DNA of 64,000 bases. Source: Bradyrhizobium sp. CB3481 (GTDB lineage Bacteria > Pseudomonadota > Alphaproteobacteria > Rhizobiales > Xanthobacteraceae). The notes under the pieces are model-generated. The model did not search any database, was not told the origin of the DNA, and was given only the letters and a program-made list of their open reading frames with translations. The stretch spans positions 4,732,501 to 4,796,500 of the forward strand of contig NZ_CP121647.1 in assembly GCF_029714305.1 (NCBI RefSeq), written 5' to 3'. Positions within the stretch are counted from its first letter, which is position 1; each line of letters opens with the position of its first letter. This document shows positions 13,206-22,334 of the stretch, piece after piece. The position numbers were made by a program, and so were the translations under genes.

Positions 13206-14465
13206 TCAACCTCCCGCCATCAAATCCTTTGCCAGCGCCATGTAGGCCGGCAGCGTCACGGGATCGTTGGCGGCGTTGCCGGCGGCCGGGTGCGAGGCAT
13301 AGCGGGCGATCACCATCTCGGCCTTCGGATCGATATAGATGCCCTGCCCGTGCACGCCGCGCGCCATGAAGGCGCCGTGCGCGTTATGCGTCACCCACCA
13401 CTGGTTCCGGTACGAGGCACCGGGCAAGGTGGTGTAGCCGGCCGGCTTGAACTTTTCGGGATCGCCGCCGCGCGCGATCTCCTCGACCACTTGCGACGGC
13501 ACGATCTGGCGGCCGTTGAAGCGGCCGTAATTGCGGATCGTCTCGCCGAAGCGGGCGAGATCGCGCAGTGTCGTGGAAAGCCCGCCGCCGCCGCTTTCGC
13601 TGCCGATGCGGTCGACGTGATAATGCGCGTCCTCTTCCGCGCCCATCGGAATCCAGATGCGCTCCGAAAGTAGATCGGACAGCGTCATCCCGCTCGCCCG
13701 CCGGCAGATGAAGGCCAGCACGTCGGAATTGACGGTCTTGTAGGCGAAGGCCTTGCCGTGCTCACCCTGCTTCTTCTGCCCGCACAGGAAATCGAAAATA
13801 TTGGTCGCGCCCTCATAGCCCGGCTCGATCGGCGCCATGCCGTTCGCCCGCCGCAGCCCGAACACGCCGGAAGTCTTGTCGGTATAAACTTCCGTGTATT
13901 CGAGGCCGGTGGTCATATCCATGGTCTCATGCACGCGCGCATCGCCGAAGGCGCTGGCCTTCAGCTCCGGCACATAGTCGGTGACCGGCGCCTGCGGATC
14001 GATCTTCCCCTCCGCGATCAAAATGCCGGCGAGCGTGCCGGTGAAGGATTTTGTCACGGACATCGCGATATGCGGCTTGTGCGGCTTCAGCGCACCGAAA
14101 TAGCGCTCGTAGATCAGCTTGCCCCGGTGTACTACGGCGATGCCGTCGGCGTAGGTTTCCTCGAGCATGCGCGCGAACGTCATGGGACGACCATCCATCG
14201 TAACCGAGGCGGACGCGCCGATATCATGCTCCTCGCGCGGCAGCACCGAAGCCGGCCCTGCCCCGCGCCAGACGTTTACGGTCGGCACCAACTGGCGGAT
14301 GTTGCTCCAGGCCCAGCGGAGCTCGGGGAAGCTGCGGAACGAGCCGTTATGGAAGGTGATGGTTTTTTCCGGCGGCGGGGGAAAGCCGTGCATCCAGCCG
14401 ATGGTTTGCGGATCGGTTTCGGCGGCAGTTGCGGGCGGCTGGTTGGCGGCGGTCGCGACGGACAT
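13206..14465 (-). CDS. Beta-lactamase-fold serine hydrolase (NylB/class C type)
   Basis: A 419-residue protein. The S-x-x-K nucleophile motif is SVTK (in AMSVTKSFTG), the tyrosine motif is FAYKTVNSDVL, and the third motif reads GVHGQGIYIDP in place of KTG. This pattern is shared with 6-aminohexanoate-dimer hydrolase and EstB-type esterases rather than true beta-lactamases. There is no signal peptide, so it should be cytoplasmic. The N-terminal 90 residues (FHNGSFRSFPELRWAWSN) are typical of this subfamily. Monocistronic; natural substrate unknown, probably an amide or ester. Confidence 0.85.
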   Translation of the reverse strand: MSVATAANQPPATAAETDPQTIGWMHGFPPPPEKTITFHNGSFRSFPELRWAWSNIRQLVPTVNVWRGAGPASVLPREEHDIGASASVTMDGRPMTFARMLEETYADGIAVVHRGKLIYERYFGALKPHKPHIAMSVTKSFTGTLAGILIAEGKIDPQAPVTDYVPELKASAFGDARVHETMDMTTGLEYTEVYTDKTSGVFGLRRANGMAPIEPGYEGATNIFDFLCGQKKQGEHGKAFAYKTVNSDVLAFICRRASGMTLSDLLSERIWIPMGAEEDAHYHVDRIGSESGGGGLSTTLRDLARFGETIRNYGRFNGRQIVPSQVVEEIARGGDPEKFKPAGYTTLPGASYRNQWWVTHNAHGAFMARGVHGQGIYIDPKAEMVIARYASHPAAGNAANDPVTLPAYMALAKDLMAGG

Positions 14466-14749
14466 CGAAGATCACTCCAGAGAGGCGATCCCGAGTCATA
14501 CCATGCGATTACGCACCGCACATCCCGCGTTTGCACCGGGGTGACCGTCACCGCAAGCGGTTGCGGGGCAGTGCCTAGAGCGGGCTTAGCGATAGCGTAA
14601 CTCGACGATCTCGCTCGACAACGTGGTGGATTGCGCCTTCGGCTAATCTCACCTGATCGCTAATAGCTACCGGCTGTATTCCCCCGAAACTTGCAGCTAG
14701 ACTCGCCTAGACACATAATTAAGCGACACGGTCTCACGCGGTTTGAGAT

Positions 14750-15409
14750 ATGCCCGACATCTACAATATCGGCTCGTTAGAACCTTTCGTGCATGCCTTG
14801 CCAGCAGAAGAGCAGCCTGCCGCGATGGTTTTGATATTTAACCTCATTCAATTGAATCGTCTGGTCAATGACTTTGGTGCGGCGGTAGCGCTTCTAGAGC
14901 ACGCAGAGAGCCATCTCGCAAGTATTCAAATTCTCCAGACGCAAAACTCGCTCACTTTCGTTAAGGAAAGCCATGTTTTGGAGCTTTGGAAAGAAATGGC
15001 CGGCCGGGACTCGACGTCTACGATCTTCCATTTTGGAAAGACTTTGGAAGCTTTCGGCAAAAGCATGAACAGGTCACCGACTATAGCCAATGGCGCGTTG
15101 CACGAGAAACTGAGAGCCGCAAAGAGATCGTTCCGAACAGCATTTCCTGCATTTGAACTTCTCAGACATGGCGTAAGCCACCGAGCCGAAAGCACGATAT
15201 CTCTCGAAAGCTTGAAGAAGCATTCCGAAAACGGTGCTTTCATCTTCGGTAAGATGACAAACCGATCCTTCACCATCTCCTTCGAGGGGGCCCACCGAAC
15301 TTTGACGATCGATAAGCCGACGCGACGAGTTTTGGCAAAGATCACAAACGAGACGTACGCCGCCTTTCCTCGACTAACTCCAAATTTGCCGGTCGCCTAT
15401 GAAGGATAG
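14750..15409 (+). CDS. Unrecognised helical protein with HEPN-like R-x4-H motif
   Basis: A 219-residue protein I do not recognise. It is mainly helical in its first 145 residues, with a central ELLRHGVSHRAES: Arg139-His140-x3-His144 fits the R-[NDH]-x3-H signature of HEPN domains, which are RNases or toxin-type domains. The C-terminal 70 residues are beta-rich (FIFGKMTNRSFTISFEG, RTLTIDKP). Base composition is visibly less GC-rich than neighbouring core genes, with more AT-ending codons, suggesting acquisition. No clear ribosome site. It ends 12 nt before an IS66 element. Confidence 0.55.
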   Translation: MPDIYNIGSLEPFVHALPAEEQPAAMVLIFNLIQLNRLVNDFGAAVALLEHAESHLASIQILQTQNSLTFVKESHVLELWKEMAGRDSTSTIFHFGKTLEAFGKSMNRSPTIANGALHEKLRAAKRSFRTAFPAFELLRHGVSHRAESTISLESLKKHSENGAFIFGKMTNRSFTISFEGAHRTLTIDKPTRRVLAKITNETYAAFPRLTPNLPVAYEG

Positions 15410-15421
15410 TTTCGGTCTCGA

Positions 15422-15429
15422 CTTACTGG
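15422..15429. repeat. Left 8-bp target-site duplication of IS66 element
   Basis: CTTACTGG, repeated exactly at 18236-18243. An 8-bp duplication is characteristic of IS66 transposition. Confidence 0.85.
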
Positions 15430-15455
15430 GTATCCATTCGGCGTAGGCCGCAGGG

Positions 15456-15695
15456 TTAGCGCCTGAGCAATCCAGGGTTCTCTTTGTAGAACCTAATCAG
15501 CTCGATGAGGTTTTCGATTCCGAAGTCGGTGAACGCCTGGACGCCGTCTTCTCCGACGCCATAGACCCAGATGACGCCGTCCTCGATTTCCATTTCGTTG
15601 GCGATGTCCCACAGCCAATCTTCATCTTCGCCGAGGTCCTTGGCGACCTTGGTAATAGTGGTGACGTGATGGACCTTGTTGACGTGGGTGGTCAT
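15456..15695 (-). CDS. Small acidic protein carried by the IS66 element
   Basis: A 79-residue protein starting at an ATG whose ATGA overlaps the stop of tnpC. It is acidic ([20 protein letters not shown], residues about 20-39) and ends in a predicted helix ([15 protein letters not shown]). It is inside the IS66 ends, so it is a passenger or accessory gene of the element. I recall similar small ORFs at this position in rhizobial IS66 copies, but no function is known to me. A longer start at 15731 would overlap tnpC further and is not preferred. Confidence 0.65.
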
Positions 15696-17338
15696 GCCGC
15701 TCGAGCGGAGAGCGTTGATGCCGGCGTCCAATTCCAGGGCAGAAGTTCGTCCAGCCGATGAGCCGGATGGGCGGCGATGCGGGCGAGGATATCGGTGAGC
15801 CAGGCTTGCGGGTCGATGCCGTTCATTTTTGCCGTGATGATGAGGCTGTACATAGCTGCCGCGCGCCGCCCTCCGCGATCAGATCCGCAGAACAGCCAGG
15901 ACTTCCGTCCAAGAGCGATGCCTCGCAAGCCTCGTTCGGCGGCATTGTTGGAGAGACACACGCGTCCGTCTTCGAGGAACAGCGTAAAGCTCGCCCAACG
16001 CTTCAGGATGTAGTTGAACGCCTTGGCCAGGTCGTGACCGCGGGACAGTTTGGCGAGCTGCTCGCGCATGTAGACCTGAAGGTCCTCGACCAGAGGCCGG
16101 CTCAGCGTCTGTCGCACCTGAAGTCGCCCTTCGGGGCTCCTGCCATTGATGGAGCGTTCGATCTCGAACAGCGCATCGATCCGCCGCACGACCTCGATCG
16201 CGATCGGAGAGAGCGGGATTTCCTTCTTTCCGGCACCCTTGCGCCGCGCATTCTCTTCGATGTCGGCCATGGCAAAGAACGGGCGCCTTCCATGTGACCA
16301 GCAGGCAGCCTCCCGGATCGGTCCGGGCTCGCGCCCGGCCAGATAGAGCTGGTTGTACCCGTCATAGGCGTCGGCCTGCAGGATGCCGGCATACCGGGCC
16401 AGATGCTGCTGGGGATGTTCGCCCTTGCGGTCGCGTGAGTAGTAGAACATCGCTGCTGGCGGACCCGCGCCCCCAAACGGCCGGTCGTCCCGAACGTAGA
16501 TCCAGCACCGTCCCGTATCGGTCTTGCCCTTGGCCAGCACCGGCACCGTCGTATCGTCGGCATGAAGCCGCTCGGCTGCCATGACATGGGCTTCTACCAG
16601 GCGCAGCAGGGGATCCAGCGACGCACAGACCGACCCCACGGCATCGGCCATGGTCGACAGCGCGATCGGCACCCCTTCCAGGGCATAGCGCTCGGCCTGG
16701 CGGTTCAAGGGCTGATGCTGGCCGAACTTCTCGAACATGATCATGGCCAGGAGGCTCGGGCCGGCCCATCCCCGGGCGATGGCATGGAATGGCGCCGGCG
16801 GCTGGCTGATCTTCTCGCAATCGCGGCAGGAGAACTTCTCCCGGACCGTCTCGATCACCTTCCACTGGCGCGGCACTACTTCCAGCGTGCGCGTCACGTC
16901 CTCGCCGAGCTTGCGAAGGCGATTGCTGCCGCAGCATTCACAAGCCGTAGGTCCTTCGATCACCACCCGCTCCCTGGGAAGGTGCTCAGGGAAGGTCTGG
17001 CGCTCAGCGCGCTTGCGCGTAAATCCGCGCACCGTCGTCTTCGCCACGGCTCGTTCCGCCGCAAGCTCGTCCTCGGTGGCGTCGGCTTCCAGCTCTTCGA
17101 ACGTCAGTGCCAACTGCTCGATCAGCCGCGCCGAACGTTCCGACCGCTGCCCATAGATCTGATGCTTCAGCTTGGCAATCTGCAACTGCTGCTGGGCGAT
17201 CAGCGCTTCGTCTTCCGACGCCTTCGCGCGAGCGACCGCGAGCTCGGCGGCGATCTCCAAACCCTTCGCGCGCTCGACCGCCAGCGCCTCCTTCAGGGCG
17301 GCAACGTCATCCGGAACAGTGTCGCGGTCGGCATCCAT
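15692..17338 (-). CDS. tnpC: IS66 transposase TnpC
   Basis: A 548-residue transposase. An N-terminal coiled coil runs about residues 12-70 (leucine-rich, [20 protein letters not shown]). Next is a zinc-finger-like CECCGSNRL with a second CRDCEK. The DDE catalytic domain includes [13 protein letters not shown] (first Asp), [14 protein letters not shown] (second Asp) and the terminal [19 protein letters not shown] segment (Glu). It ends with the usual [15 protein letters not shown] and ELLPWNW motifs of IS66. Length is normal, so it should be functional. Confidence 0.92.
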
Positions 17339-17408
17339 GCGACGCAGTGAATCACAGATTGGACGCGATGGGACTCCCCAAAATGGCAGCAACCGCAGAT
17401 TTCTTCGC

Positions 17409-17756
17409 TCAGCCCGCGCTTTGCGGCCGCCAGCTTAGTTGCGGATTCCGCCAGTCGATGCCCTCGAGCATATAGGCCATCTGCGCCGCTGAGATCGATA
17501 CCGCGCCGGCCGACGCCGAGGGCCAGATGAACTTCCCACGGTCGAGGCGCTTGGCGTAGAGCGACATGCCCAGCCCATCGTGCCAAAGAATCTTGACGAG
17601 GTCACCGCGGCGGCCCCGGAAGATGTAGAGATCGCCGGCATGGGGATCGCGCTTCAAGCTCTCCTGAACTGTAAGAGCCAGGCTTTGCATGCCACGACGC
17701 ATGTCGGTGTGGCCAGTGGCGATCCAAACCCTGACGCCGCTCGGAATCGGGATCAT
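17409..17756 (-). CDS. tnpB: IS66 accessory protein TnpB
   Basis: A 115-residue protein with the TnpB hallmarks [18 protein letters not shown] and [20 protein letters not shown], then [19 protein letters not shown]. It is required with TnpA for IS66-type transposition. Its ATG overlaps the tnpA stop (ATGA, 17753-17756), and it precedes tnpC by 70 nt. Confidence 0.92.
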
Positions 17757-18148
17757 CGTCGCCGCAGCAGCTCAAGAATTCGCTGCAGCGCCTCAACGTC
17801 CACGTCACGGTCAACGCGAACGCGGCAGCCTCCGCCAAGCTCGATCTCGATGATTCCAGCCCTTGCACGTTGCGCAGGCGGTGAAGCCACTGGTTGTGGC
17901 GCGTCGCTCGAAGTCGGAGCCGCCATCGGTGTGATTTCGACCGGAACGAGAGCTGGCACAGAATCTCCGCCCAGTCGACCCTGGCGCGCCTGTCGACGCC
18001 AAGTGAACAGCAGGCTGTGAGCCACCCCATGCCGGCGCGCGACGCCGCAGACCGTCTCGCCAGCCTGCAAGGTCTCTTCGACAAGGCGAACCTTCTCGTC
18101 GTAACTCCATCGCCGCCGACGCTCGGCGCCCAACACATTGACCTGCAT
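17753..18148 (-). CDS. tnpA: IS66 accessory protein TnpA (HTH)
   Basis: A 131-residue protein with a helix-turn-helix: RRRRWSYDEKVRLVEETL, then GVARRHGVAHSLLFTWRRQ. The C-terminus is less conserved (GCRVRVDRDVDVEALQRIL). ATG 18148 is taken as start rather than the longer frame to 18199, because the conserved region begins there. It is the first gene of the IS66 operon. Confidence 0.9.
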   Translation of the reverse strand: MQVNVLGAERRRRWSYDEKVRLVEETLQAGETVCGVARRHGVAHSLLFTWRRQARQGRLGGDSVPALVPVEITPMAAPTSSDAPQPVASPPAQRARAGIIEIELGGGCRVRVDRDVDVEALQRILELLRRR

Positions 18149-18235
18149 TCGCCACGTGACCTTAAAGCTAGACTTAAGGTCAAATCCTCGGGCCGCCAAT
18201 CAAACTACACAAGGCGGCCGCCGCCGGAGGGATAC

Positions 18236-18243
18236 CTTACTGG
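18236..18243. repeat. Right 8-bp target-site duplication of IS66 element
   Basis: CTTACTGG, identical to 15422-15429. Removing the element with one copy rejoins an uninterrupted intergenic sequence. Confidence 0.85.
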
Positions 18244-18361
18244 GATGGCTAGATCTGTAGCTCGCATCAGCGGAAGCGATATACGGATAGTGGTCCGAGG
18301 TGTCGCTGCGCTCACGAGGCTAGGCTTTTGCTGATTGGTGCGCGAAGTGATCAGAATAATT

Positions 18362-20500
18362 TCAGCTCCGGCCTAGATCGACCTGCAACCTGTCCTTATA
18401 GACCGCGATCCGCTTCCTGGCCCGATCCACCAAACCGTCAAAAAACAGTGTCTCGGCATAAAGCTCACCGACAACGCGATCGCTTTCAGGATCCTGAAGC
18501 GCTGTCGAGCGAAAGTAGCCCTTGCCTTGTGGAAAGCGCGTCCATCCCGACATTCGCATGCGATTGATCGTGTCGCCTATTAAATAGCCGTAGAATTTCT
18601 TGAGCCGACCGTTCGATTTGGCCAACAGCAGGTGTGCGTATTCGGATAAGTCTCCGATGTGGTCGTCCAAACTTACGCCCGGCGCCTTGAACTCGACGAT
18701 GATGGCCGAACCTTCCTTGTCGAAGATCGCGATGTCCGGACGCTTAGTACCATGCTCGTCCGATCGACGGCGTAGCACCTGCTCGAACTCCTGATCGATG
18801 TCACTATCGAAGAGCCTCGAATGATCATTCCACGCGATCTGCGATAGTGGCTTATCGGACGCGATATAATCGTAGTATTGATACTCCTCGCTAAGTAGCC
18901 AGATATCGTGATCGCCAGTCTCGTGGCTGTCCTTTCGCATCGGGAAAAAGATGCTGTGGATGATGCGCTCATCCATGCGTTTGGCACTATCATCTATCTT
19001 CTGGACGTCCAGTTGCTTGCTACACGCGAGCGAGAGAATTTCAACGATCGCTGCGCGCCGGACAACTAGCTGCGATAAGTTGGCCATGTCGAAGGTCTTC
19101 AGCGACGAAGTGTAGCGCCACGATAGTTCATTGATCTTGTTGCGATAGTCAGTTGTATGCGGCTCCGCTTTGACGATCTCTTGCTTCAGATCGAAGATCT
19201 CCGCGGTCTCCGCGATAATGCGCTCCTGATACTTTCGCAGCACACGCTCAGCGACGGACTTGGCGCTATCACCGTATACTACGCGGGTGTCGGTATCGGA
19301 AATCATCCTCGGAAAGACGCCGAACTTCTCCGCCGCGTCTTTGATGACCTCTTCCTTGCGCCAGCCGGTGGGTGTCACCATTTTGTCGATGATAGGATCG
19401 ATCGCGTCGTAGATCGCATCGTAGGAAACCGTCTCATCGACGAATAGGTCATATACGGGTATCTCGTCGGGAATTCCCTCGAAGCCATCGCGCTGCTCGT
19501 TCACCCGCTGATCGAGTAGGTCGCCCTCGATCAGCACGATGTGATGGTAGCCGCTAACCGGTCTGCTTTGCTCGGCTTGGGTGCGAAGATAGCGCCTCGT
19601 GATGTCCAAGACCGGCGAGGATTTCGCACAGAAAGAAATTGCGTTTCGCGGTAGATCGAAGCTTTGCGCGTCGAGCCTATAGTGTGAGATACGGAATTCC
19701 TTGCGTCTGCCAAGCTGAGAGCCGCTTTGAGGATCCCGCTCTTCGACAAAGGCCTTCCTTTCTTCGGTGATGGGCGGCAGGTCGGATGCACTCAGGCTGG
19801 TCTGCTCCACCCTCTCGTCCGGATATTTTGTATCGAACGTGATCGTGAACTCGCCGAGCTCCGCCTTGAGGCTCACCAGTCTCTGCAGGAAGGCCATCAA
19901 CATATGCCGGCGTACATTGAAAGCGGAGAACGCTTCGCCGAGGGTCTCTGCGCGAAAGAAGCGCTCGCGCACTACTTCCTTGAGGCCCTCTAACGTGATC
20001 GTGGTACCGATTTCCTCTTCTCGGCCGGGAGCACTCGAAAAATCGCCAAGATCAATCTTCTTACGGCCTGCAAGAGGCGAAAGGACGCGCGAGACAATGC
20101 GGTCACCGTCGCGAAAGGTACTGCGAATGCCGACTTTTTCGAAGCTGTGGAAGAACTGGATGCGGCCCGCTCCCTTGCACTTCCCGATCCCGGTGATCGC
20201 GAGGTCGTCCTTGTAGGACGTGTCCTTAGTAAGGAATGCGTCGGTCTGTTCATCTCCAAGACCGCATCCATTGTCAGTGCATGAGATGAGGATATCGATC
20301 TGATCGTCTAGGAGACCCGCTTCAAATAGTTCAATCGAAACCGTCACCTTTAGGTCTAGCTTCGATGGGTCTTGGGATGGGTCTTGGCTGCGGCGTATGA
20401 GAAAGGAATCGATCGAGTTCGATATCAACTCCTCAATCACTACGTATTTATTGGAACTGAGCTTCGTATTCTTCAGACTTCCACGAATATCGAGCGTCAT
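18362..20500 (-). CDS. GHKL ATPase with C-terminal PD-(D/E)xK nuclease-like domain
   Basis: A 712-residue protein. Residues 1 to about 180 form a GHKL (MutL/Hsp90/MORC-type) ATPase: N-box ELISNSIDS (24-32), DNGCG (76-80), glycine lid GIGKCKGAG (104-112) and GTTITLEG (165-172). Residues about 190-370 resemble the S5-like second domain; LDQRVNEQRDGF (329-340) matches a motif of restriction-linked GHKL proteins. A helical segment (about 390-560) follows, then RPDIAIF...VEFKAP with Asp589, Glu603 and Lys605, the PD-(D/E)xK nuclease pattern. No methyltransferase gene is adjacent. It has AT-richer codons than its neighbours and no clear ribosome site. Likely a DNA-acting defence protein; function is inferred, not known. 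Confidence 0.75.
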   Translation of the reverse strand: MTLDIRGSLKNTKLSSNKYVVIEELISNSIDSFLIRRSQDPSQDPSKLDLKVTVSIELFEAGLLDDQIDILISCTDNGCGLGDEQTDAFLTKDTSYKDDLAITGIGKCKGAGRIQFFHSFEKVGIRSTFRDGDRIVSRVLSPLAGRKKIDLGDFSSAPGREEEIGTTITLEGLKEVVRERFFRAETLGEAFSAFNVRRHMLMAFLQRLVSLKAELGEFTITFDTKYPDERVEQTSLSASDLPPITEERKAFVEERDPQSGSQLGRRKEFRISHYRLDAQSFDLPRNAISFCAKSSPVLDITRRYLRTQAEQSRPVSGYHHIVLIEGDLLDQRVNEQRDGFEGIPDEIPVYDLFVDETVSYDAIYDAIDPIIDKMVTPTGWRKEEVIKDAAEKFGVFPRMISDTDTRVVYGDSAKSVAERVLRKYQERIIAETAEIFDLKQEIVKAEPHTTDYRNKINELSWRYTSSLKTFDMANLSQLVVRRAAIVEILSLACSKQLDVQKIDDSAKRMDERIIHSIFFPMRKDSHETGDHDIWLLSEEYQYYDYIASDKPLSQIAWNDHSRLFDSDIDQEFEQVLRRRSDEHGTKRPDIAIFDKEGSAIIVEFKAPGVSLDDHIGDLSEYAHLLLAKSNGRLKKFYGYLIGDTINRMRMSGWTRFPQGKGYFRSTALQDPESDRVVGELYAETLFFDGLVDRARKRIAVYKDRLQVDLGRS

Positions 20501-20591
20501 ATCTGGTCCGTCGGAAGCTTTTCCCGAATGCGCGATTTTTGAGAGGCATACAACTACAAGTCAAGCACTTCGTGCATAATGACGCTAACGG

Positions 20592-22190
20592 CTACTCCCA
20601 CTCAATCGTCCCCGGCGGCTTGCTCGTCACGTCGTACACCACCCGGTTCACCCCCTTCACCTCGTTGATGATCCGCGTTGCGGTTTCGCCGAGGAATTTC
20701 ATGTCGAAGGGATAGAAGTCGGCGGTCATGCCGTCGGTGGAGGTGACGGCGCGGAGGCCGACGACGTATTCGTAGGTGCGGCCGTCGCCCATCACGCCCA
20801 CTGTCTTAACCGGCAGCAGCACGGCGAAGGCTTGCCAGATCTGATCATAGAGGCCGTGCTTTCGGATCTGGTCGATATAGACGGCATCCGCATTGCGGAG
20901 GATGTCGAGCTTTTCCCTGGTGATGTCGCCGGGGCAGCGGATGGCGAGGCCGGGGCCCGGGAACGGGTGGCGGCCGACGAAAATTTCGGGCAGGCCGAGC
21001 TCGCGGCCGAGCACGCGGACCTCGTCCTTGAACAGTTCGCGCAGCGGCTCAACCAGCTTCATGTTCATGCGATCAGGAAGCCCGCCGACATTGTGGTGCG
21101 ACTTGATGGTGACCGAGGGGCCGCCGGTGAAGGAGACGCTCTCGATCACGTCAGGATAGAGCGTACCCTGCGCCAGAAATTCGGCGCCGCCGATCTTCTT
21201 CGCCTCGGCGTCGAACACGTCGATGAAGAGACGGCCGATGGTCTTGCGCTTGCTTTCGGGATCGGTAACGCCTGCGAGCTCGCCGAGGAATTGTTTTGAG
21301 GCGTCGACATGCACCAGCGGGATGTTGTAGTGGCCGCGGAACAGGTCGACGACGGTCTCGGCTTCCTTCAGGCGCAAGAGGCCGTGGTCGACGAAGACGC
21401 AGGTGAGCTGGTCGCCGATCGCCTCATGGATCAGCACGGCCGCGACGGCGGAATCGACGCCGCCGGAGAGTCCGCAGATCACCCTGCCCTTGCCGACCTG
21501 GGCGCGGATCTTTTCGATCGCCTCTTCACGAAACGCGCGCATGGTCCAGTCGCCGGTCAGGCCGGCGACCTTGCGGACGAAATTGCGCAGCAGCAGGGCG
21601 CCATCAGGCGTGTGTACCACTTCGGGGTGGAACATCAGCCCGTAATATTTGCGCTTCTCGTCCTGGATCACCGCGAACGGCGCGTTCGCTGAGACGCCGG
21701 CCACCGTGAAACCCGGCGGCATCTTGGTGATGCGGTCGCCGTGGCTCATCCAGACCGGGTGCCGCGCGCCCTTGGTCCAGATGGAATCGAACAGCGCGCT
21801 ATCCGCCTTCACCTCGACATCGGCGCGGCCAAATTCCCGATGGTGTCCGCCCTCGACCTCGCCGCCGAGCTGGGCGGCCATGGTCATCTGGCCGTAGCAG
21901 ATGCCGAGCACCGGCACGCCGGAATCAAAGATTTTTTGCGGCGCGCGGGGCGAGCCTTGTTCGTGCACCGATTCCGGACCGCCGGAGAGGATCACGGCTT
22001 TCGGCTTCATCTCGTCGAAGGCGGCCTCGGCCTTCTGGAACGGCACGATCTCGGAATAGACGCCCTCCTCGCGCACGCGGCGGGCGATCAGTTGCGTCAC
22101 CTGACTGCCGAAATCGACGATCAGAATCTTGTCATGCGCCGAGGCCACCGAAGGCGTCGACGACTCGCTGATTTGTTGCTGGGCTGTCAT
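20592..22190 (-). CDS. guaA: GMP synthase (glutamine-hydrolysing)
   Basis: A 532-residue enzyme converting XMP to GMP with ATP and glutamine. The class I amidotransferase domain has the nucleophile Cys98 in GICYGQM and FHPEVVHT (catalytic His and Glu). The ATP-pyrophosphatase domain has the P-loop [10 protein letters not shown]. The dimerisation domain ends [10 protein letters not shown], the typical GuaA C-terminus. The frame stays open to 22277, but ATG 22190 matches the family start, with an extra 20-residue N-terminus common in rhizobia. guaB lies 8.4 kb away on the same strand and is not in one operon. Confidence 0.96.
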
Positions 22191-22334
22191 GGCAAGCAGA
22201 TACGCGACAGGGGGCGGCCTCGCAACCGCGGCAAACGGGCGGCCCACATTCTTCTTGGGGGATGGACAGGCGCTCATAGGTCAGTATTATTGACCTAATT
22301 TGCCTGGTCCGCCGGACGGGCGCGGGAGGAGACG

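Follow-up and report, generated by a model that had tools for sequence, protein, structure and literature searches.

What is the function of a lone gene beside guaA whose product joins a GHKL ATPase to a restriction-type nuclease? The question is raised by a 64,000-nucleotide stretch of Bradyrhizobium sp. CB3481 DNA, the window, which covers positions 4732501-4796500 of a single-contig 8.04-Mb genome. The gene (18362-20500, minus strand) encodes a 712-residue protein with GHKL ATPase, S5-like and PD-(D/E)xK nuclease domains, an architecture of the paraMORC3 type. This study found that the gene is intact, that the catalytic residues of both domains are strictly conserved, that the gene is accessory and sporadic, and that its relatives keep company with defence genes at some loci. 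Its product is probably a paraMORC3-type nuclease that defends against phages as a single protein; the gene, which occupies a variable site next to a housekeeping gene, is likely to be a defence gene of a known kind. An initial annotation of the window had proposed a stand-alone, ATP-gated defence nuclease that avoids host DNA without a methylase, and plausibly this reading was largely right, but not new in kind.

The open reading frame (ORF) starts with ATG and ends with TGA, and a single copy was found in its own genome. All motifs quoted in the initial annotation are present in the one chain: ELISNSIDS at residue 24, DNGCG at 76, GIGKCKGAG at 104, GTTI at 165, the S5-like LDQRVNEQRDGF at 329, and RPD-x13-EFK at 587. 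The GHKL (Bergerat) ATPase domain covers residues ~20-180 (19961-20443, minus strand, as for all four parts) and contains E24, N28, D76, G78, G80, G110 and G112. It is followed by an S5-like or Hsp90-middle-like domain (residues ~190-375; 19376-19933), in which R337 within LDQRVNEQRDGF is a candidate ATP-sensing finger, and by a linker (residues ~376-500; 19001-19375) that is mostly helical in the secondary structure of the predicted model. The putative nuclease domain (residues ~501-712; 18365-19000) carries E511, D589, E603 and K605, an E-D-ExK set, at ~18686-18970.

Conservation was assessed in three alignments: 57 close sequences; 87 sequences, the window protein included, of which 14 form one remote group with 22-24% identity; and 18 sequences, 13 of them 18-23% identical. 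The GHKL residues E24, N28, D76, N77, G78, G80, G110 and G112 and the nuclease residues E511, H515, D589, E603 and K605 are invariant in the first two, and R337 is invariant in all three. The same ATPase, S5 and nuclease residues are kept in the 18-sequence alignment, N77 there at a level of at least 90% only. Because the key residues do not vary across such a range of sequences, the motifs are not a product of chance. E511, in an ExxxH motif, is a further invariant and likely catalytic residue that was absent from the earlier list; with D589, E603 and K605 also kept, it argues for a nuclease of the E-D-ExK type. The protein searches scored only the candidates that shared the most words with the query and listed 120 matches per search. 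In one of them, 709 of the 7993 candidates scored passed E<=1e-3; 112 of the 120 matches listed are 690-765 residues long.

Searches against family models gave faint signals for the same domains. In Pfam, the window protein matched HATPase_c (E=0.009), HSDR_N_2 (E=0.009) and HSDR_N (E=0.015), each below the Pfam cut-off, and in NCBIfam an HSP90-family model (6e-4), far below that model's cut-off. In a set of 18 family members, a threshold of E<=0.1 gave matches to HATPase_c in 18, HATPase_c_3 in 13, HSDR_N in seven, and SduA_C in one (E 0.029). The PADLOC models matched five families in these members, each in one member (best E 0.0048), with one weak match to SduA (E 0.026). An AlphaFold2 run with 57 sequences (pLDDT 71.8) was superseded by one with 87 sequences (pLDDT 82.2), in which residues 1 to ~375 matched Hsp90 and MORC structures from the GHKL domain through the S5/middle domain; a Hsp90/MORC-like fold is thus predicted for this part. 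The C-terminal domain, whose restriction-endonuclease fold the initial annotation had put up for checking, found no relevant solved structure by sequence (four chains at E 0.11-0.64, no nuclease among them). The structure-match rows mainly span residues 1-376, so the absence of nuclease rows is uninformative.

The architecture is not new and has precedents. Iyer, Abhiman and Aravind (2008; PMC2292703) described paraMORC3 as a GHKL domain, an S5 domain and a C-terminal restriction-endonuclease-fold domain with E-D-ExK; a subset, mainly from proteobacteria and bacteroidetes, is stand-alone and without conserved neighbours. For these, the authors allowed functions other than restriction-modification (RM), and also raised unlinked RM partners. 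The window protein shows the N-terminal GHKL domain with conserved ATP-binding motifs, the S5 domain with a conserved basic residue (R337) behind it, and, at motif level, the C-terminal E-D-ExK endonuclease signature; its clade is likewise sporadic in proteobacteria and without conserved neighbours. No difference was found, the comparison being one of defining features rather than of grouping with the sequences named by Iyer et al. From its sequence features, the protein is best filed as paraMORC3, since it has all the defining features that could be tested. The MORC S5 motif GhXhhpXXRhl and the MutL endonuclease motif DQHAx2Ex4E occurred in none of the 87 and none of the 18 aligned sequences; the window family differs in this from the MutL, MORC, SMCHD1 and Hsp90 ATPases and carries restriction-type nuclease motifs instead.

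A protein of the same architecture has already been assayed. According to Adams et al. (2025; PMC12137116), Drexlerviridae and vibriophage X29 are both countered by VcSduA of Vibrio cholerae, a GHKL-PD-(D/E)xK protein whose protective effect is abolished by E27A and by K557A. Protection was seen at all multiplicities of infection tested, which the authors read as direct restriction; they relate the protein to paraMORC3 and Shedu type I-D. Since ATPase and nuclease mutants of VcSduA were both assayed there, the central idea of the initial annotation has already been tested for a protein of this architecture. In that account VcSduA is, like the window protein, a single protein with N-terminal GHKL and C-terminal PD-(D/E)xK domains, and its catalytic Glu/Lys pair E27/K557 corresponds to E24/K605 here. 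Compared by description, the two differ in that DUF4263 is reported in VcSduA and no SduA_C match was obtained for the window protein, and in the Glu-to-Lys distance (530 versus 581). In a Vibrio fluvialis relative (L036), the catalytic residues are Glu 27 and Lys 556, the latter one position off VcSduA; it has no SduA_C match, which disfavours it as the VcSduA orthologue.

The relation to Shedu (SduA, DUF4263) was examined with hhalign, by comparing profiles built from SduA_C loci with the domain profile of the window family. Local alignment gave probabilities of 84% with 7 sequences and 94% with 11, and global alignment gave 50% and 95%, respectively, against 0.1% for a reversed control; with 18 sequences in the profile the value was 91%. 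An HsdR N-terminal profile made from two sequences reached 63%, suggesting that the link may be to PD-(D/E)xK nucleases generally. L171 and L172, two proteins encoded in genomes of the same phylum, combine a GHKL domain with an SduA_C match (27.5 bits, above the cut-off, and 22.3 bits, below it). Their two-sequence profile aligned with the 18-row alignment at 98.5% (E 2.5e-15, 436 columns, both domains) and with the 87-row alignment at 80% (130 columns, linker and nuclease part), both values standing without a shuffled control. By these profile matches, the two proteins appear to bridge the window clade and the GHKL-Shedu proteins. The window protein itself may share with Shedu a remote, profile-level nuclease similarity; the N-terminal domains are unlike and SduA_C is not matched directly. 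For want of this signature it is best not filed as Shedu, although it probably works like GHKL-Shedu.

The gene is rare and scattered. Some match was found in 18 of 197 genomes, its own included, with full-length close copies in two only, its own and G060 (62%), a genome of the same genus whose protein is identical to that of the B. diversitatis locus L050. An N-terminal remnant of 117 residues, 58% identical to the window protein and ending in a TAA stop, is the same in five genomes of the genus (L004-L008: G072, G021, G005, G058 and G010); four further genomes (G034, G071, G076 and G088) have partial close matches only, and seven have only distant long-frame relatives. In a class-level sample, 11 of 385 genomes matched; the close full-length copy is confined to the gene's own genome, and the rest hold remnants or distant relatives. 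When GTDB species genomes were scanned with two peptide patterns, 56 loci emerged; they lie in alpha-, beta- and gammaproteobacteria, in Mariprofundia and in one record that bears the label Armatimonadota. Matches were also present in 16 of 72,556 plasmid records, four of them close-clade (H1-H4), and at four loci on viral contigs, one of which (L096) is probably the same as the Aminobacter locus L067. A quick tree of 55 rows places the window protein next to that of Novosphingobium as a pair (support 93) and the B. diversitatis copy in another clade; the Ruegeria and Salipiger proteins are identical.

Known or candidate defence genes are present at 10 or more of 55 loci. These include Gabija GajA-GajB (L032), GajB with an ABC-type ATPase (L075), HerA beside an annotated SIR2 gene (L033), HerA with PDC-M01A (L059), PDC-M01A (L061), an MzaB-like gene (L063), a dCTPase with a GajB/DRT-type helicase (L041), Septu PtuA-PtuB (L072), and type I RM (L064 and L065). 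In Mariprofundus (L064, 6163-15301), hsdM, a 307-residue gene, hsdS, the paraMORC3-type gene and hsdR follow one another on one strand; in Ghiorsea (L065, 8722-16279) the order is hsdS, the paraMORC3-type gene, a 328-residue gene and one homologous to the L064 hsdR. At both, the paraMORC3-type gene overlaps hsdS and sits ahead of hsdR; it is possibly an extra subunit of type I RM there. On an IncC-typed V. fluvialis plasmid (L036, 1-8786), an hsdR-AAA-methyltransferase-hsdS-Shedu array is followed on the same strand by a distant paraMORC3-type relative; relatives at least 95% identical to this last gene are listed from Vibrio contigs of ~100 kb. With Gabija, Septu, SIR2-HerA, MzaB-like and type I RM genes beside relatives, and with the VcSduA precedent, the defence role first proposed as a candidate is now likely. 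PADLOC models were run on 185 near genes (93 and 92) from 55 loci and on a far set of 143 genes at least 5.5 kb away from 45 loci; the model matches numbered 375 and 232 in the near sets versus 166 in the far set, which is no gene-level test because the models are redundant. At 1e-20, 18 of 30 hand-picked neighbours matched PADLOC models and 12 did not. A conserved partner gene was ruled out, the largest homology groups among the 185 near genes reaching 4 of 55 loci.

By analogy with VcSduA and Shedu, and from the company of defence genes, we infer that this clade probably acts against phages; no phage assay for it was found in the literature searched. On the most economical reading, two chains would dimerise through their GHKL domains upon ATP binding, and the clamp would shut around DNA or phage nucleoprotein. 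The S5/middle domain may, via R337, pass the nucleotide state on to the metal nuclease at the C-terminus (E511-D589-E603-x-K605); both nuclease domains would then cut only DNA captured in the closed clamp cavity. What marks DNA as foreign would be its state, be it ends, topology or replication intermediates, and not methylation. For EcSduA, a review (PMC12904381) reports sensing of DNA ends.

An open question is how methylation-free nucleases distinguish phage DNA from that of the host. Since GHKL clamps (Hsp90, MutL, TopoVI) are among the best understood ATP switches, a putative single-gene clamp nuclease whose motifs are all conserved offers a clean test object. A bolder and rather doubtful view is that the clade is a so far uncatalogued defence family of its own, an ATP-gated DNA clamp joined to a nuclease that has ceased to score as Shedu; it would spare host DNA without methylation, be solo in most hosts and also have been recruited as a cutting module into type I operons in Mariprofundus and Ghiorsea; if so, clamp closure, not translocation alone, would license cleavage inside hsdS-hsdR operons.

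Several results weigh against a phage-defence nuclease. The window protein matched neither Pfam SduA_C nor anything in PADLOC-DB 2.0.0, SduA included, at E<=1; as it matches neither, it likely lies in a blind spot of defence surveys based on them. Whole-model TM-scores against known structures were low (TMq 0.16-0.30 among the 50 matches listed), and the C-terminal domain is assigned as a putative nuclease at motif level. None of 50,697 phage records held a copy at E<=1e-5. Class labels on the tree required 6 changes (minimum 4; 10 unclassed rows omitted), against a mean of 9.8 after shuffling, and none of 200 shuffles came as low; this clustering beyond chance indicates that transfer between classes is limited. 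The near/far contrast in gene context is soft, counting redundant models and with type I RM among the far genes too, and the individual reading of neighbours, which covered 30 genes overall, identified no defence gene at the remaining 45 of the 55 loci.

The four close-clade plasmid copies, together with the lack of any found in phage records, could instead point to an anti-plasmid or general DNA-conflict nuclease, similar to Wadjet or DdmABC, whose targets would be incoming plasmids or rival mobile elements and not phages. GHKL clamps of other families handle DNA topology, which suits such a role; VcSduA, however, acts on phages, phage and plasmid defence can coexist, and this explanation is considered unlikely. 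A host role in DNA repair or chromosome maintenance, as a MutL/TopoVI-like enzyme, draws on the GHKL and S5 module common to MutL, TopoVI-B and Hsp90, and on the non-RM functions allowed by Iyer et al. (2008; PMC2292703). It fits poorly with the rarity of close full-length copies (1 of 385 and 2 of 197 genomes), the partial copies or remnants in 9 of 18 matching relatives, the lack of any neighbour homology group beyond 4 of 55 loci, and the missing MutL endonuclease motif, and is very improbable.

Also very improbable is an accessory subunit that adds an ATP-gated cut to a type I restriction system whose genes lie at another place in the genome. The overlap with hsdS ahead of hsdR in Mariprofundus and Ghiorsea, the position of the distant relative at the end of the V. 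fluvialis array, and the unlinked RM partners raised by Iyer et al. (2008; PMC2292703) would agree with it; the arrangement, however, is shown in only 2 of 55 close-clade loci, and no hsd gene was seen by eye beside the window gene, RM genes elsewhere in the genome (G000) not having been searched. A single-protein anti-phage nuclease remains the preferred reading. The stand-alone state noted earlier holds in the window, where no restriction partner was seen by eye in the ORF list of the island interval (with the same limit on the rest of the genome), but it is not a fixed trait of the family, given the hsdS-hsdR placement.

The setting of the gene agrees with the island beside guaA that was originally described. 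GMP synthase gene guaA (20592-22277, minus strand) adjoins it, and the 3' end of guaA borders a variable interval in the genus. The accessory interval (14571-20591) extends from guaA to a serine hydrolase gene (13206-14465, minus strand; beta-lactamase-like, named by eye), which flanks it. No match of at least 80 bases (E<=1e-8) to this interval was found in 16 downstream regions of relatives, in which guaA was matched 16 times and the hydrolase gene seven times, at a guaA-to-hydrolase distance of 1.3 to 13.4 kb. guaA DNA was matched in 58 of 60 genomes, its own included, although in G035 in short pieces only. Extra copies of the guaA 3' end occur downstream in relatives (L117 has two; L116, L122, L123 and L128 have one each), with short pieces in L115 and L119; together with the variable interval, they make the guaA 3' end a likely integration spot. 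Paper listings associate guaA with the integration of mobile elements in other settings too. A second guaA 3' copy was sought as an attachment site in the window, where only guaA itself was present, so that integrase-type insertion of the gene in the window is not demonstrated. No tRNA lies within the window as an island anchor, and Rfam at gathering thresholds gave no match there. The cargo beside guaA varies among relatives and in L117 includes a TIR-like protein of 860 residues, named by eye.

As first reported, the gene is AT-richer than its surroundings, with GC 0.539 and GC at third codon positions (GC3) 0.668 versus 0.639 and 0.842 for guaA, and it is also AT-richer than five other window genes. 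A sigma-70-like promoter scan returned one site versus 1.8 expected by chance and was not used. The second island gene (14750-15409, plus strand; 219 residues, unassigned family, GC 0.497) is the most AT-rich of 12 genes checked and occurs in 2 of 100 genomes, its own and G013 (55%). It was considered as a partner and left as cargo, having no convincing family and no significant match in the relatives' loci examined.

The neighbouring IS66-type element (~15430-18235, minus strand, named by eye) is indeed next door, as a separate insertion. It contains TnpC-like (15692-17392), TnpB-like (17409-17756) and TnpA-like (17753-18199) ORFs and a 91-residue ORF (15456-15731). The 9-base match on both flanks (15422-15430 and 18236-18244) suggests an independent insertion, and this flanking repeat of its own rules the element out as the vehicle of the paraMORC3-type gene. 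For IS66 an 8-base target duplication is expected, so the ends are uncertain by one base. IS66-type elements stand beside paraMORC3-type genes in three replicons (L034:12334-14775, L038:3578-6051 and the window, 15430-18235), which possibly only reflects how common IS66 is there. In Kiloniella (L078, 10001-14882), a paraMORC3 gene lies ~1.2 kb upstream of guaA (70% identical), on the opposite side of guaA from the window arrangement.
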